From Clostridia bacterium (GTDB lineage Bacteria > Bacillota_A > Clostridia > Oscillospirales > CAG-272), in the NCBI GenBank assembly GCA_017626655.1, contig JAGAIH010000215.1:1-5447 (forward strand): 5,447 bases of DNA. Direction: 5' to 3'. Below are positions 1,031 to 5,447 of the stretch, piece after piece. The notes beneath the pieces were generated by a model. It was not told the origin of the DNA and made no database searches. It was given only the letters and a program-made list of their open reading frames with translations. The position numbers and the translations under genes were made by a program. Position 1 is the first letter of the stretch; each line of letters opens with the position of its first letter.

Positions 1031-1218
1031 TGACTTGATATAGGGGGAGTTGATGACTCAGCCCCTGTGGGTGATACTACAACAAAATTGATATATACAG
1101 GGCTATTGCACAAAAAATGTCCATAATTATTTCTGTTAGGGTAGGCTGATCTCTTGGCGGTGACGGGAGTTGCACTTGCTCCCTATCCGTGGGGGCTGAT
1201 CTATGCCTGGAAAAGGAT
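1031..1218. other. Gene-free stretch between the IS200 right end and the LRR gene
   Basis: No ORF with a ribosome binding site or recognisable family was found on either strand. Small stems are visible: GGGG-GAGT/ACTC-CCCC around 1043-1065, and GGGAG/CTCCC at 1165-1183. The string ACAGGGCTATTGCACAAAA (from 1097) resembles the style of DDE insertion-sequence tips, but no partner end or transposase is here. GGCTGATCT occurs twice (about 1144 and 1195). It is the 3' flank of two converging units (tnpA + and the LRR gene -), yet I see no convincing T-tract terminator. Confidence 0.5.
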
Positions 1219-2055
1219 CTAAGTATCCTTCCCCAGTTCCGCCCTGTATCTCGCGACTAGGGCGTCGAACTCGCGGATATACTTATCCAGTCTGGCTTGC
1301 CCCTTGGGGAGGTCCAGCCCTGGCTTTCTGTAGCCGCACACCCGGACGTCGTTGAGGATGGCGTCCTCGGTGTTGTAGGCGCCCAGGGAGCTTCCCCGGA
1401 TATGAGGGTACTTGGCGCACATGTAGGCGATCTCCTCGGTGTAAAACATCCCCGCAGGGAAATCGAAGCGGGTCAGGCTGGGGACGCTCTCCAGGACGTC
1501 GGTATCACGGTCCTCCAGCTTGATGTTGTAGAGGATCACCTCCTCCAGGGACTCCATGCCCCGCATCCATTCCAGGCTCTTCATGGGGTAGGGGGTGTCC
1601 ATGTCGCCGCGAAAGAAGATCCCCTTCAGGGACTTGGCCCTTTGCAGGGCGAGGGGATCGTAGGCGATCTTTTTGGTGGAATCCAGCCAGAGGTATTCCA
1701 GTTGGGGATTTTTCGACATATCCCAAAGGGTGCTGTTGCGGATGTTCCAGTAGATGCTGACACCTTGGAGGTGCTTCAAATCCTCGAGGGGGGAGAAGTC
1801 CGAGATCAGCTGGCACTTGAAGAAGCTCAGATACTCGTACTCCGCGCCGTATTTCTCGACGAAATACTCGAAGCTCTTCTGCTCCATCCCGCAAATCTCC
1901 AGGATCTTTTTGCTTTTTCCGAAGCTCATCTCGTAGTCCACGTCGTCGGGGGACATATTGCAGGGGGAGAAGGCGCCGCTGGGGTTGGGCTTGGGGCGGG
2001 AGACGAAGAGGCGCTTGTCGGTGTCGTTTGTGTGGATGAACCAGTCGTTTTTCAT
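1219..2055 (-). CDS. Hypothetical protein with leucine-rich-repeat-like segments
   Basis: This is a 278-residue protein starting at ATG 2055, with AAAGGAGC 5 nt upstream (2061-2068) and stop TAG at 1219-1221. Residues about 73-202 contain irregular LRR-type units in which a hydrophobic ladder follows a short helix: ISDFSPLEDLKHLQGVSIYW (84-103), NPQLEYLWLDST (116-127), AKSLKGIFFRG (140-150), MRGMESLEEVILYNIKL (164-180), SVPSLTRFDFPAG (190-202). The C-terminal about 40 residues (ARLDKYIREFDALVARYRAEL) form a charged amphipathic helix. There is no signal peptide or membrane segment, so it is probably cytosolic. LRR folds usually bind protein partners; no specific role can be assigned. It lies 154 nt after the kinase gene on the same strand but has clearly higher GC, so it need not share its origin or operon. 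No convincing promoter was found in the gap. Confidence 0.8.
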   Translation of the reverse strand: MKNDWFIHTNDTDKRLFVSRPKPNPSGAFSPCNMSPDDVDYEMSFGKSKKILEICGMEQKSFEYFVEKYGAEYEYLSFFKCQLISDFSPLEDLKHLQGVSIYWNIRNSTLWDMSKNPQLEYLWLDSTKKIAYDPLALQRAKSLKGIFFRGDMDTPYPMKSLEWMRGMESLEEVILYNIKLEDRDTDVLESVPSLTRFDFPAGMFYTEEIAYMCAKYPHIRGSSLGAYNTEDAILNDVRVCGYRKPGLDLPKGQARLDKYIREFDALVARYRAELGKDT

Positions 2056-2209
2056 GGGTTGCTCCTTTGGGGGACGGTCGATCTTCCTTTGAATTTCAAG
2101 AATCTTTTCACTTTATATTTTCCTTTGCTATTTTGAGGGAGTTACTTCGCATTGCAGCATATTTCCTCCCAAATGGCAATTCTATGCTTGTAAACGAAGC
2201 TATGTAATA

Positions 2210-3217
2210 TCAAATAATATTCAAGTCTGCTTGATCATTTGCCAGCATTGCTAAACGCTTATACGCTCCAAAAAACATATCCAAGTGATAATCGGTCATG
2301 TAATAAAACGCTCCTTGGTTTTGTTCTCTGCACTTCGCATGATATGAGAGGACTCTGAGCATATGTAATGCCGCAAAAATATAGATTGCTTTTTCCTCGT
2401 CATCATTCAATATACGAATGTCACGATACCCCTTGATTACAGAACGCCAAAGATCTTTTTGGTAGATTTCATTATCCATGAAAGTCAAATTGGCAAGCAA
2501 AACGCCCAGATCATATACAAAATATCCGCGCCCCATGCAGTCGAAGTCAAATAAAACGGGATACTCGCCGTTATAAAAATAATTGTTCGGTTGTACATCA
2601 CCATGGCAAAAGCCAAGGGTTTCGCTAAGTTTTGAAAGTGTGGAATCAACTGATATCCATAACGGTAGCGCAGTTTTGCTTAAAAAATCAAGATCAGCTG
2701 TACGGTGCTTCAAAAAAGGATTCAGCAATCGGGTAGGTTCCTCTACGAGCATAGTTTCATTGATCAATGGCCTTGCAGAATGATTCTGGAAGGAACGGGA
2801 CGATATATGCACTTGGGCGAGGAGGCTCCCAAGATTTTTCATTCTAATATTTGCATCTCCTGCTGGAGATTGCTCAATTCCTCGGAACAAAACAGCTTGG
2901 CGCATACCTTCGGGTGCATCAAGCTCCAATACATAGGATTTGTCCGTACATTGAATCGGTTCAACCACAGATAATCCACGAGCTCGAAGGTGATGAATAA
3001 ATTGAATTTCTTCCTCAATTTGTATTGTGTTATATACGTTAAATAATGATACTCGCAGGAAATAACTGTTATTTTTTGCAGTTATCTTATATATGTCATT
3101 TAATCCGGATTTGAAGAATATGCATGAGGAATCTGTTGGTAAATTATAATGGTGCTTTAATTCTTCTAAAAGCGCACCAGGCGAAAATTGTGAATAGTTT
3201 ACTTTGATTGAACTCAT
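2210..3217 (-). CDS. APH/choline-kinase-fold phosphotransferase
   Basis: The 335-residue protein belongs to the phosphotransferase (APH) family of kinase-like enzymes, which move the ATP gamma-phosphate to small molecules such as aminoglycosides, choline, homoserine or, for SrkA-like members, proteins. The N-lobe has a nucleotide-loop-like FKSGLNDIYKI (35-45) and the strand SYFLRVS (51-57). The C-lobe carries the catalytic motif HGDVQPNN (His205, Asp207, Asn212) and the metal-binding LFDFD (Asp224, Asp226), followed by YDLG. All key residues are present, so it is probably active; the substrate is unknown. ATG 3217 is preferred over an in-frame ATG 60 nt upstream because it has AAGGAGA at about 6 nt and overlaps the upstream stop as ATGA, implying translational coupling to the four-helix gene. 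Base composition is AT-rich compared with the LRR and mannosidase genes. A resistance role is possible but unsupported. Confidence 0.88.
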   Translation of the reverse strand: MSSIKVNYSQFSPGALLEELKHHYNLPTDSSCIFFKSGLNDIYKITAKNNSYFLRVSLFNVYNTIQIEEEIQFIHHLRARGLSVVEPIQCTDKSYVLELDAPEGMRQAVLFRGIEQSPAGDANIRMKNLGSLLAQVHISSRSFQNHSARPLINETMLVEEPTRLLNPFLKHRTADLDFLSKTALPLWISVDSTLSKLSETLGFCHGDVQPNNYFYNGEYPVLFDFDCMGRGYFVYDLGVLLANLTFMDNEIYQKDLWRSVIKGYRDIRILNDDEEKAIYIFAALHMLRVLSYHAKCREQNQGAFYYMTDYHLDMFFGAYKRLAMLANDQADLNII

Positions 3218-3561
3218 TTGTTTTCTCCTTTCGCCGTGTTGATGGAGGCAATCAACATTCTGCGGATCGTACCGCATTGATTATATAAATCTTTCGCAAT
3301 CTCACGGTCAAGCAATTCGGATTTTACAAACAATTCAAGCCAATATTCGGTTTCGTAGCACTCCTTCAATGCAATTTGAAACTTGTCAACAAAGTCGGCT
3401 TTGCCATGGGCATAATTCGCTTCGTGAATATTTGCACCAATTGAGGTAGAGGAACGCTCTAACTGATTGATAAGAGAATAGTGACCTTTTATACTGTCAT
3501 ACATTTTAATGACTTTAACCGCAAAGTCTGTGGATAGTTCCCGAAGTTTTGATTCTGCCAT
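3214..3561 (-). CDS. Four-helix-bundle protein (23S rRNA intervening-sequence / Avd-like family)
   Basis: A 115-residue, all-helical protein. The family signature is clear: QLERSSTSIGANIHEA (33-48), then an F-x-x-x-x-x-IALKE-x-x-E helix (57-72, DFVDKFQIALKECYETEYW). Family members were first noted as ORFs in 23S rRNA intervening sequences, and also include free-standing genes and the Avd accessory proteins of diversity-generating retroelements. They form small oligomeric bundles, and nucleic-acid binding is suspected for some. Here the gene is free-standing: no rRNA or reverse transcriptase is in the window. It is first in a two-gene unit, with its TGA (3216-3214) overlapping the kinase ATG. 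The ribosome binding site is weak (AGAAGGG, 10 nt from ATG). An array of linker-spaced hairpins lies immediately upstream of its promoter, which suggests a functional link (inference). Confidence 0.88.
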   Translation of the reverse strand: MAESKLRELSTDFAVKVIKMYDSIKGHYSLINQLERSSTSIGANIHEANYAHGKADFVDKFQIALKECYETEYWLELFVKSELLDREIAKDLYNQCGTIRRMLIASINTAKGENK

Positions 3562-3584
3562 AGTAACACCGCCCTTCTTCTGTT

Positions 3585-3613
3585 ATTATATCATAGATCC
3601 GTAAGTTTTTCAA
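3585..3613 (-). promoter_or_regulatory. Promoter of the four-helix/kinase pair
   Basis: Read on the minus strand: TTGAAA (3613-3608), a 17-nt spacer, then TATAAT (3590-3585) preceded by TGA, an extended -10. The expected start is near 3578, leaving a leader of only about 17 nt, so the weak AGAAGGG (3578-3572) lies at the very 5' end of the transcript. The -35 box directly abuts the first linker (3614-3620) of the hairpin array, so anything binding the array could affect this promoter. Confidence 0.8.
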
Positions 3614-3795
3614 GTGAAATATTCGGCTTACGCCGAATGTGAAATAATTCACTTCGTGAATTGTGAAATATTGCTCCTTGCAGTCGCAATGTGAAATAAA
3701 ATTCGTTCCTTCACACGCCGCAGGCGTATTTCACTGCCGCTGGCAATTTCACACGCGCCAGCGTCTTTCACTCGTTCCGCAGGAACGAATTTCAC
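3614..3795. repeat. Array of short hairpins separated by a constant GTGAAAT linker
   Basis: Seven-base linkers GTGAAAT occur at 3614, 3639, 3663 and 3691; the reverse complement ATTTCAC occurs at 3728, 3746 and 3789, with a one-base variant CTTTCAC at 3765. Between them sit short palindromes whose sequences all differ: ATTCGGC/GCCGAAT (3621-3638), AATTCAC/GTGAATT (3646-3662), ATTGC/GCAAT (3670-3690), ACGCC/GGCGT (3715-3727), TGCC/GGCA (3735-3745), ACGC/GCGT (3753-3764), TCGTTCC/GGAACGA (3772-3788). Loops are mostly 3-4 nt (TTAC, TTC, GCA, GCT, GCCA). One unpaired half-arm, AAATTCGTTCC (3699-3709), marks the orientation switch. This is the reverse of a CRISPR layout: here the linker is constant and short, and the variable parts are self-complementary. 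It fills the gap between the tRNA terminator and the four-helix promoter. Function is unknown. Confidence 0.9.
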
Positions 3796-3833
3796 TGAAA
3801 AAAGCCATTCGCTTACGCGAATGGCTTTTTTCA
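3796..3833 (-). terminator. Bidirectional intrinsic terminator of the tRNA-Trp unit
   Basis: TGAAAAAAGCCATTCGC (3796-3812) and its exact reverse complement (3817-3833) form a 17-bp stem around a TTAC loop. Six A residues on one side and six T residues on the other give a U-tract in either direction. It begins immediately at the encoded CCA of the tRNA (3834-3836). Its GC core and TTAC loop resemble the first hairpin of the neighbouring array (3621-3638). Confidence 0.88.
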
Positions 3834-3909
3834 TGGCAGGGGCAGGAGGATTCGAACCCGCGACCCACGGTTTTGGAGACCGGTACTCTACCAGCTGAGC
3901 TATACCCCT
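3834..3909 (-). tRNA. trnW: tRNA-Trp (anticodon CCA), CCA encoded, with two stem mismatches
   Basis: The minus strand gives a 76-nt cloverleaf: acceptor AGGGGTA/TGCCCCT (7 bp, one G-T), D arm GCTC...GAGT, anticodon loop CTCCAAA (anticodon CCA, tryptophan), T loop TTCGAAT, discriminator G and encoded CCA at 3836-3834. Two non-pairs stand out: C27 opposite U43 in the anticodon stem and C50 opposite C64 in the T stem. There is also a U-G pair at 51-63 and a G-U at 10-25. Length and all loop landmarks are normal, so it is probably a real, slightly imperfect tRNA, though a decaying extra copy or a base-calling error is possible. It is transcribed as a single-gene unit. Confidence 0.95.
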
Positions 3910-3985: not shown

Positions 3986-4003
3986 GCTTTTTTCGGCTTT
4001 TTT
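3984..4003. repeat. Tandem CGGCTTTTTT repeat overlapping the alpha-mannosidase stop codon
   Basis: Two exact 10-bp copies lie at 3984-3993 and 3994-4003, with a degenerate third copy (TTGCTTTTTTT) just before at 3973-3983. The right copy overlaps the TAA stop at 4004-4002. It may be replication slippage in an A/T run. Confidence 0.6.
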
Positions 4004-5447
4004 AGCCCAGCTCCACCGTGACGATCTTCTTGGCGGGGATATCCAGGGTCAGCTTGCCGTCCCGGATCGCCAGGTCGGTTTTGGCTACCTCGTTCAGGTC
4101 GGTGAGCTTGGCGGTCGTGAACTTATCGGAGAGGTCCACCGTGAGGGTGACGGTCTCGGCGGTGGTGTTGAAGAGGCGGAGGATGGCGGTGTCGCGGTCC
4201 TCGGCCTTCTTGAGGGCGGTCATGCGGATATGCTCGTTATTCAAGCGGACGTAGTCACGGGCGGCGGGGAGGGTGCCCTCGTGCTTGGGGGTGCCGATGG
4301 CCAGGGCGGCGGGGTAGGCGAAGGTGTAGCCCTCGCGGTAGGCTTCGGCGCGGTCGGCGGTGTCGTAGGGGATGAGGGAATACTCCAGGGTCCAGGTGCC
4401 CTTCTTCTGCCCCAGGGGAGTGGGGAAGACGCCCCAGTCGCCGATCTCGCCTACGGCGCGGAGGAGGGTGACGGCCAAGGTGTTGCGGCCGTCGCGGAGG
4501 ACCTCATACTCGCAGAGGCCGCGGTTGGCCACCATCAGGGCGTCGGTGCCGTTATCCGACTCCAAGGTGACGAAGGCCTGGACGCGCTGGGCGTTGCAGG
4601 GGTTCTGCCAGATGGGGGAGGGGCGGATGTCGCGGCGTACCACGTCGAACTGGCCCTCGGCGTAGACCGAGTCGGTGGCGATATCCGAGGTGAACAGGGC
4701 GCGGAGGCGGTGATCCTCCATGCGGTTGGTGACGACGGTCTTGAAGTCCACCCGGGCGATCTTGTCGGAGAGGGTGACGTAGGTGGTGATATCGGCGTCG
4801 ATGGCCATGGGGATGACGGCCTTGAAGGTGACCGACCAGGGGGTGACCTCGTGGAGGGAGATCTCGGCCTTGGAATCGGCGGTGGTGACGGCCACGTCGC
4901 CCTCGGGCTGGACGTAGTTGTAGAGGTTACCCTGATCGCGGGTGTCCTCGAAGAGGTTCTGATTCTTGTAGGCGCGGCCGGTCCTCTTGTCGGTGACGTC
5001 CACGGTGCCGTTTTCATTGAAGTTCACCGAAAGGAACTCGTTCTCCATGGAGGAGTCGGTGTAGCGGACGGCGGTCTTGACGGCGGGGGCCTGCTTCTTG
5101 ACGGCGAAGGTGCGGTAGCCGATGCCATGGGACTCTACCTGCATCTCCACCTCAAAGCGGTTGACGTAGCGGGGCTGGCGGAAGCGGTCCTTGGGGAGGG
5201 TATAGGTGAACCGGTTGGGGATATACTTGATCTTGGCGGGAACCTCGTTGCCGTTCTCGTCGAAGATGGCGATGGCGGTGGCGGGGTCGTCGCGGTCCAG
5301 GTCCACGTTGGCCTTGACGGTCAGCACCGACTTGTTCGGCTCAAGGGACAGCACCAGGGTGGCGTGGTCGCCCTCGGCGGCGGAGGTGTCTACTACGGCG
5401 GCCAGATGATCCAGCGCCCCGTCGCGGAGCTGCTCACCGCAGGCGGT
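4002..5447 (-). CDS. GH38 family alpha-mannosidase, C-terminal part (5' end outside window)
   Basis: The frame is open to the right edge: 481 residues plus TAA. GH38 enzymes are zinc-dependent, retaining hydrolases of alpha-linked mannose. The catalytic N-terminal barrel with its Asp nucleophile and metal ligands is outside the window; what is seen is the C-terminal beta-sandwich half. Landmarks in fragment numbering: GIGYRTFAV (about 108-116), the linker that opens the domain; MENEFLSVNFNENGTVDVTDKRTGR (134-158); FEDTRDQGNLYNY (166-178); TNRMEDHRLRALF (240-252), the family DHRLR motif; ANRGLCEYEV (307-316); WGVFPTP (338-344); and a C-terminal all-beta tail ending in AKKIVTVELG. The GTG at 5354 is not a credible start because 31 conserved-looking residues precede it in frame. 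No signal is visible because the N-terminus is missing, so location is unknown. GC is high with C/G-ending codons, matching resident genes. Mannosidases of this class in gut Clostridia serve mannan or glycan breakdown (family knowledge). Confidence 0.9.
   Translation of the reverse strand, partial: TACGEQLRDGALDHLAAVVDTSAAEGDHATLVLSLEPNKSVLTVKANVDLDRDDPATAIAIFDENGNEVPAKIKYIPNRFTYTLPKDRFRQPRYVNRFEVEMQVESHGIGYRTFAVKKQAPAVKTAVRYTDSSMENEFLSVNFNENGTVDVTDKRTGRAYKNQNLFEDTRDQGNLYNYVQPEGDVAVTTADSKAEISLHEVTPWSVTFKAVIPMAIDADITTYVTLSDKIARVDFKTVVTNRMEDHRLRALFTSDIATDSVYAEGQFDVVRRDIRPSPIWQNPCNAQRVQAFVTLESDNGTDALMVANRGLCEYEVLRDGRNTLAVTLLRAVGEIGDWGVFPTPLGQKKGTWTLEYSLIPYDTADRAEAYREGYTFAYPAALAIGTPKHEGTLPAARDYVRLNNEHIRMTALKKAEDRDTAILRLFNTTAETVTLTVDLSDKFTTAKLTDLNEVAKTDLAIRDGKLTLDIPAKKIVTVELG

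Follow-up and report, generated by a model that had tools for sequence, protein, structure and literature searches.

A linker-hairpin array behind tRNA genes as the candidate left end of a mobile S23 cassette in gut Clostridia

The linker-hairpin array of a 5,447-nucleotide stretch of Clostridia DNA (contig JAGAIH010000215.1; the whole stretch is called the window here) is best explained, with a probability that we put at roughly 60%, as the structured domain at the left end of a mobile gene cassette that encodes S23 and sits directly behind the 3' CCA of a tRNA gene. Comparisons among related loci establish the order of the parts, boundaries close to the CCA and at the S23 stop codon, the exchange of passengers, the conserved pairing, and the clade-specific linkers, and they suggest that the cassette is mobile.

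RESULTS

The array consists of two inverted halves

A sequence-only reading of the window had described eight near-identical 7-nt linkers between positions 3614 and 3795. The linkers are present there, but they form two inverted blocks of four and not a single direct repeat. Along the plus strand, four GTGAAAT linkers are followed by four reversed linkers of the ATTTCAC type, so the array is composed of two head-to-head halves. Seven exact copies of GTGAAAT or ATTTCAC lie in this span (mean of 0.94 in shuffled windows, with seven reached in 0 of 200 shuffles), the eighth linker, at 3765-3771, is a variant (CTTTCAC), and three spaced GTGAAAT copies were found twice in the window and in 0 of 200 shuffles. 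The array is real and beyond chance.

Each half matched the Rfam Gut-1 covariance model (RF01706) above its gathering score of 50 bits. The left half (3703-3797, minus strand; 50.5 bits) contains the linkers at 3789-3795, 3765-3771, 3746-3752, and 3728-3734, and the reversed right half (3612-3702, plus strand; 57.6 bits) contains those at 3691-3697, 3663-3669, 3639-3645, and 3614-3620. Among the matches listed, each of 10 genomes had 6 to 45 Gut-1 matches, compared with 2 to 5 S23 matches, with the proviso that one complete array can yield two Gut-1 matches. The pattern is therefore not absent elsewhere, the outcome that the sequence-only reading had linked to a chance or degenerate repeat; such a repeat is ruled out by the shuffles and by the abundance of Gut-1 matches. 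A CRISPR-like array is ruled out by the self-complementary spacers, and no cas family was found among the seven ORFs scanned.

Pairing within and between array units

Uninterrupted stems in the four parsed window spacers are 7, 7, 5, and 4 bp (the spacers beside the variant linker fall outside the parse), at odds with the earlier statement that pairing is perfect in every hairpin. The companion proposal, that structure and not hairpin sequence is kept, was upheld across 79 arrays: their 436 spacers comprise 274 different sequences, and the mean stem is 5.4 bp, compared with 2.2 bp in single-base shuffles, with stems of at least 4 bp in 372 spacers. Two further kinds of pairing had gone unremarked. 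The forward linkers of the window can pair with its reverse linkers, and an arm at the array center (3699-3710) is a 12-nt complement of the first-hairpin arm (3781-3792), which provides an alternative outer stem. The longest exact complement for the outer stem averaged 10.6 nt within a locus and 5.9 nt between loci with different arms; a complement of at least 8 nt was found for 69 of 74 relatives within the locus, compared with 620 of 3,770 comparisons between loci.

The number of units per array is nearly fixed at about 4+4, with few longer arrays (e.g., L003, L004, L011, and L017). Gain or loss of single hairpin units, which had been anticipated, was thus not the pattern; loci vary in tRNA and passenger instead. 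The near-fixed number across loci also lends no support to hairpin-templated synthesis as the origin of the array. The rival expectation of a fixed, non-expanding stretch half holds, as judged by comparison between loci.

In the window, the predicted fold, both as RNA and as DNA, is a ladder of four-way junctions flanked by hairpins on either side, and at least two forward-reverse linker helices were predicted in 60 of 71 folded arrays, a count without its own shuffled control. We infer that the array may form such a ladder when single-stranded. The folds also bear on an unlikely alternative, in which the array works as a noncoding RNA, perhaps one that S23 binds in the role of RNA chaperone or regulator, and the cassette is merely its carrier. 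The RNA fold is unusual (z of −5.8), many spacers have CUUCG-type loops that suit RNA, Gut-1 is matched on both strands, and S23 genes are found elsewhere inside 23S rRNA and RNase P RNA. The S23 family PF05635 is also reported to resemble the retroelement protein Avd, a reverse-transcriptase partner (PMC10053308). The DNA fold, however, is as unusual as the RNA fold (z of −7.8; 200 shuffles each), and the two halves read alike when taken on opposite strands. Moreover, the array has a terminator-like palindrome on one side and the S23 promoter on the other, so neither the tRNA transcript nor the S23 transcript should contain it.

A cassette of about 2.8 kb in the window

The span first noted does hold the array, but it is only part of a larger element at about 1068 to 3833. 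Along the minus strand, the order is tRNA CCA, palindrome, linker-hairpin array, promoter, S23, passenger gene, second gene, and right-end repeat, and the features below are all on that strand. The element starts directly behind the 3' CCA of tRNA-Trp(cca) (3834-3909), a junction that is also found in relatives. It opens with a terminator-like palindrome (TGAAAAAAGCC...GGCTTTTTTCA; 3796-3833), similar in kind to those at the left end of relatives and missing from the terminator scan because its T run lies inside the stem. A promoter-like TTGAAA-17-TATAAT (3585-3613) lies directly behind the last linker, towards S23. The S23/four-helix-bundle gene (3214-3561; 115 aa) matched PF05635 at 89.3 bits (cut-off, 33.8) and TIGR02436 at 98.3 bits (cut-off, 24); 2rld is a relative with a solved structure. 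The ATG of passenger 1, which encodes a phosphotransferase-family (APH-fold) protein (2210-3217; 335 aa), overlaps the S23 stop by 4 nt, and behind this passenger is a truncated start of a class-A right end (2170-2205; word match TTCGTTTACAAGCAT). Gene 2 (1219-2055; 278 aa) had an LRR match only below threshold and is a relative of the L003 passenger (L003 and the window are 67.6% identical over 981 bp). The class-A right-end repeat at 1040-1237 (profile E of 4.5e-46, the window being one of the seven seeds) gives a cassette of about 2.8 kb; its right terminus, read against L001, L003, and L304, is at about 1068. None of the three window ORFs tested matched PADLOC anti-phage families. Upstream of the tRNA, positions 4002-5447 (minus strand) encode the C-terminal part of a glycoside hydrolase family 38/mannosylglycerate hydrolase-like protein.

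The −35 box adjoins the last linker, and linker and S23 go together. Both would suit an array that is cis-regulatory DNA, with the linkers as operators for repression of the S23 promoter by S23 itself, or with the array as an insulator between tRNA and passenger. We consider this improbable, since operators need neither kept hairpins nor a distant outer stem, and many arrays with no S23 behind them keep the whole design.

Beside the right end of the cassette, at 441-910, is an IS200-like transposase split into two ORFs. Known REP/BIME elements with RAYT combine short hairpins that have a conserved foot with a Y1 transposase partner, and the hairpins described here could in principle be REP/RAYT or IS200/IS605-like units moved by such an enzyme; their shortness and conserved foot, insertions that lack an evident target duplication, and the neighboring transposase are all consistent with this. 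The window transposase, however, had one other match among the loci then collected, and Y1 genes were present in 15 of 54 S23-bearing genomes, compared with 22 of 66 S23-free genomes. A Y1 transposase acting in cis or in trans found no support, with no association with S23 loci or genomes, and we regard this origin as very improbable. The partner here is S23, and the near-fixed 4+4 inverted design and the tRNA site likewise differ from REP/BIME elements.

Related cassettes lie mostly at tRNA genes

Relatives were collected by a search with the S23 protein alone in one genome per species; the array and the tRNA played no part in choosing them. At least 557 were confirmed, and the best 80 were kept, all named Clostridia or subgroups and many from ruminant guts. 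The genomes are mostly fragmentary metagenome assemblies, and contigs often end a few hundred bases upstream of S23 (e.g., L005, L012, L015, and L019), as expected if multicopy arrays break assemblies. In nearly all of the best 80, an array lies about 60 to 230 nt upstream of S23. A blind 6-mer detector, with first-order Markov resamples as the null, recovered an array at 75 of 78 S23 genes (at least 250 nt upstream, duplicates dropped), exact 6-mer detection being prone to miss arrays with mixed linkers.

A same-strand tRNA gene ended within 420 nt of S23 in 48 of the 64 loci with more than 420 nt upstream; with four loci of shorter upstream sequence, 52 of 81 (window included) bear a tRNA. 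The gap between the tRNA end and the A run in these 52 is 0 nt (41 loci), 1 nt (9 loci), or 2 nt (2 loci). As many as 25 tRNA kinds serve as anchor, and among the 70 loci whose upstream sequence reaches at least 330 nt, a text search found CCA before the palindrome in 56.

Of the 16 loci (among 64) that had no tRNA call, one (L074) has its cassette directly behind a tmRNA gene, which suggests that a tRNA-like CCA end suffices. Six others lie behind a copied tRNA 3' end, the tRNA itself being further upstream in the same locus (19 to 22 of 21 to 22 nt identical in L016, L020, L027, L057, and L063; by eye in L010), and L001 sits behind the right end of an earlier cassette. The remainder are degenerate or traceless, and at least four with no tRNA trace (L066, L068, L077, and L080) count against a cassette anchored at tRNA genes. 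In L020, L010, L016, and L027, units of about 150 to 230 nt lie between tRNA and cassette, with a terminator-like palindrome at the start and a tRNA 3'-end copy at the end; three of them also hold an inverted T-arm copy. These units seem to be small elements in their own right.

The 3' end of a locus's own tRNA was not duplicated downstream in general: the best match averaged 11.9 of 19 positions, compared with 12.0 for other tRNAs (n = 43). An ordinary integrase-made tRNA island with a downstream tRNA-end copy was therefore not supported. In the sequences compared, the lack of a general copy, unlike in integrase-made tRNA insertions, is also counted against the mobile cassette.

Homology is bounded by the CCA and the S23 stop codon

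Long homology across S23 joined 215 locus pairs, 192 of which had different tRNA kinds. In these 192, homology was lost within 25 nt of the S23 stop in 186 pairs and started within −35 to +45 of the CCA in 153 pairs, with both limits observed in 150. For example, the window (tRNA-Trp) and L007 (tRNA-Gln) are 87.3% identical over 648 bp, from CCA-24 to stop+0. The pairs L034/L238 and L045/L072 are exceptions in which the passenger is also common to the pair.

The gene behind S23 varies by locus; in 39 of 81 loci it starts with the same 4-nt overlap with the S23 stop. No ORF of at least 40 aa was found directly behind S23 in 19 of 81 loci, which counts against the cassette explanation. The 44 complete passengers (62 loci had an ORF) matched 32 Pfam families, including GNAT, DUF4279, WapI-like, AAA, HAD, SfsA, NUDIX, ASCH, and MazG. 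Two classes of right end were recognized, with places fetched twice removed. Class A (15 copies in 10 distinct loci; profile from seven seeds including the window) begins no more than about 20 nt from the passenger stop in 7 loci. For class B (28 copies from 25 distinct loci; profile iterated on the same loci), the start is −10 to 60 nt from that stop in 11 loci. Class-B right ends contain imperfect direct repeats, and a new palindrome and a new array often follow directly behind.

Insertion differences and arrays without S23

Genomes G006 and G291 have common flanks, at 89% identity up to tRNA-Trp and 92 to 96% thereafter, with about 1.26 kb behind the tRNA in G006 where G291 has about 150 bp. 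A GGATGG...CCATCC-type palindrome lies directly behind this tRNA-Trp in relatives; in G006 it is found 1,160 bp behind the tRNA, after the array, S23, the passenger, and the right end. Alignment of the two thus shows one well-resolved difference, read as an insertion that displaced the tRNA's own terminator-like palindrome. Behind the same tRNA-Trp, G288 has an S23-less array and another gene. A comparison at tRNA-Leu agrees as an apparent second insertion difference: the distance from the tRNA to the point behind it where homology returns is 2.7 kb in G001 and about 0.43 kb in G280.

Most arrays per genome have no S23, a finding that counts against the cassette explanation. Among 40 Gut-1 places away from S23, 26 had a cluster of at least four GTGAAAT/ATGAAAT-type linkers, and 12 of these clusters were directly behind a tRNA gene, by reading of the list. 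Near-identical S23-less elements (94 to 97%) occur at different places in different genomes; those of L115 and L118 are 94.3% identical over 352 bp, with identity starting at the CCA.

These comparisons speak to whether the block moves at all. An old, immobile module of the tRNA neighborhood could be inherited vertically and have its passengers swapped by homologous recombination, and the multiple copies per genome, mostly at tRNA genes, would fit. So would the divergence of locus pairs, typically 8 to 18%, which indicates that moves were not recent. Such a module is hard to reconcile with the same flanks holding different content behind the same tRNA, with S23-less elements so alike at different places in different genomes, or with tandem cassettes that have different linkers in one locus, and we judge it quite unlikely.

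Linker type follows the S23 tree

The layout recurs in other S23 clades with different linkers; the types found were GTGAAAT, ATGAAAT, ATGATAT, ATGAAGC, GTGAAGT, GTTATAT, GTGATGC, and TCGATAT. Forward and reverse words, found independently, were reverse complements in 86 of the 97 loci having both (of 199), and linker groups were complementary in 9 of 17 own combinations, compared with 6 of 272 crossed ones. On an S23 tree of 97 rows (72 labeled, GTGAAAT thinned to 23 of 51, many forks not resolved), linker type required 10 changes (minimum, 6), compared with 40.4 when shuffled, a value as low being reached in 0 of 200. The earlier suggestion of protein landing sites fits this pattern, at least in sequence; plain co-inheritance would also make the linker follow the S23 tree, which is counted against our explanation. 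In L035 and L060, cassettes with different linkers occupy one locus, so the linker goes with its S23 and not with the host.

DISCUSSION

A working model of the cassette

The cassette is proposed to carry its own terminator-like palindrome, by which the tRNA could still terminate, followed by the array, the promoter, S23, a passenger overlapping the S23 stop, and the right-end repeat, behind which another cassette could follow. When array DNA becomes single-stranded or is extruded, forward linkers would pair with reverse linkers and spacers would fold out, giving the four-way-junction ladder. An S23 oligomer would bind this ladder, reading its own linker, and the complex would mark the left end for excision and insertion by a recombinase that probably acts in trans. 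No recombinase was found in the cassette, and none was identified in trans by the Y1 and integron-integrase searches, which weighs against the model. More tentatively, at slightly less than even odds, we propose a new class of mobile cassettes for which nearly every tRNA gene, as well as tmRNA, offers a docking place at its CCA end. Their left end would be a self-assembling four-way-junction ladder addressed by a 7-nt linker, the clade-specific word of their own S23. A large superfamily of selfish elements, located within stable-RNA genes or next to them (23S rRNA, RNase P RNA, tRNA, and tmRNA), would then have S23 as its structure-binding protein.

Relation to known elements

Compact passengers, a site directly behind the stop codon, and tandem cassettes recall integron cassettes, as does folded DNA as a likely substrate. 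In contrast to integrons, each unit here has its own promoter and S23, and the anchor is a tRNA end. The IntI profile TIGR02249 exceeded its cut-off in 0 of 120 family genomes, a set that lies outside the window genome and whose control genomes also gave 0. Most likely, by analogy, the array works like the structured site of an integron while, on what was tested, being no member of that group. The use of a tRNA 3' end as insertion place is common to tRNA-targeted genomic islands and tycheposons; the S23 element differs in having no integrase, about 25 tRNA kinds, a length of about 1 to 3 kb, and no general tRNA-end duplication.

Gut-1 in Rfam corresponds to one half of the array and is reported as a free noncoding RNA with human gut sequences as its only known source (PMC2864571). 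In the animal-gut Clostridia compared here, by contrast, the array has two such halves, inverted, and makes up the left end of an S23 cassette behind tRNA genes. Partial matches in phage and plasmid records were found in two unannotated fecal phage scaffolds and one Monoglobus plasmid. In a viral collection, at least 120 stretches matched three spaced linkers; of the 80 analyzed, 2 had at least three forward and at least three reverse linkers, and none had an S23 match at E of 1e-3, so most viral matches are probably chance. In the open-licence literature, a body that leaves preprints and most subscription papers outside, no title or abstract start joined S23 with tRNA genes, passengers, or Gut-1. 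The Gut-1 and S23 families are thus known already, both without known function, and their combination is apparently undescribed in that literature.

If the proposal is true, gut Clostridia collect and express passengers at tRNA genes in an integron-like manner, from cassettes without an integrase, and the passengers so gathered include acetyltransferases, NUDIX, MazG, and immunity-like proteins. The identity of Gut-1 and the role of S23 become testable together, and the matched linker/S23 pairs are a ready series of specificity variants for binding work.

S23 elements in and beside stable-RNA genes

S23 is known chiefly from rRNA inserts, where its ORF has had no explanation. The intervening sequences in 23S rRNA of Leptospira and Coxiella resemble the cassette in having a stable-RNA gene as insertion place, inverted arms, and an S23 gene; for Coxiella, short tandem heptamers are reported to adjoin S23, and the Xanthomonas S23 crystal structure is said to be a homopentamer (PMC4990558). 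The window element differs in lying behind and not inside an RNA gene (tRNA-Trp), in having both arms upstream of S23 and a hairpin between linkers, and in carrying its own promoter and passengers. We regard it as a form of S23 selfish element that has become a passenger-carrying cassette.

In a family-level sample, 38 of 76 S23 loci had significant inverted linker arrays, 29 had a tRNA, and 23 had both; in a phylum-level sample, an inverted linker array or a tRNA was found in 0 of 29. By reading, S23 in the 29 sampled Bacillota loci is mostly between inverted short-word runs without hairpins, and some of these genes lie within 23S rRNA, as judged by motif match. The S23 elements in or beside stable-RNA genes appear to constitute one superfamily.

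Several individual loci were noted in the course of this comparison. In two Bacillota genomes (L166 and L168), the RNase P RNA gene (RF00010 match over 775 nt, 1229-2003, minus strand) contains an S23 element whose inverted arms consist of short words. A second kind of element behind tRNA genes (L104, L105, L237, L248, and L262) has hairpin-free inverted runs of simple words (TTCACTATTCACT.../...AGTGAATAGTGAA) upstream of S23. On a Monoglobus pectinilyticus plasmid (NZ_OY725736.1; L182), a type I restriction system has, between its hsdS and hsdR genes, an unannotated S23 ORF with inverted short words (AATTAGGAATGAGGAGTTAG.../...CCTAATTGCTAATTCCTCATT). On a Nostoc plasmid (NZ_CP046705.1; L180), a long run of CGACTTG heptamers lies behind S23 and the complementary CAAGTCG lies before it, heptamers that we take to be reminiscent of the cyanobacterial STRR repeats.
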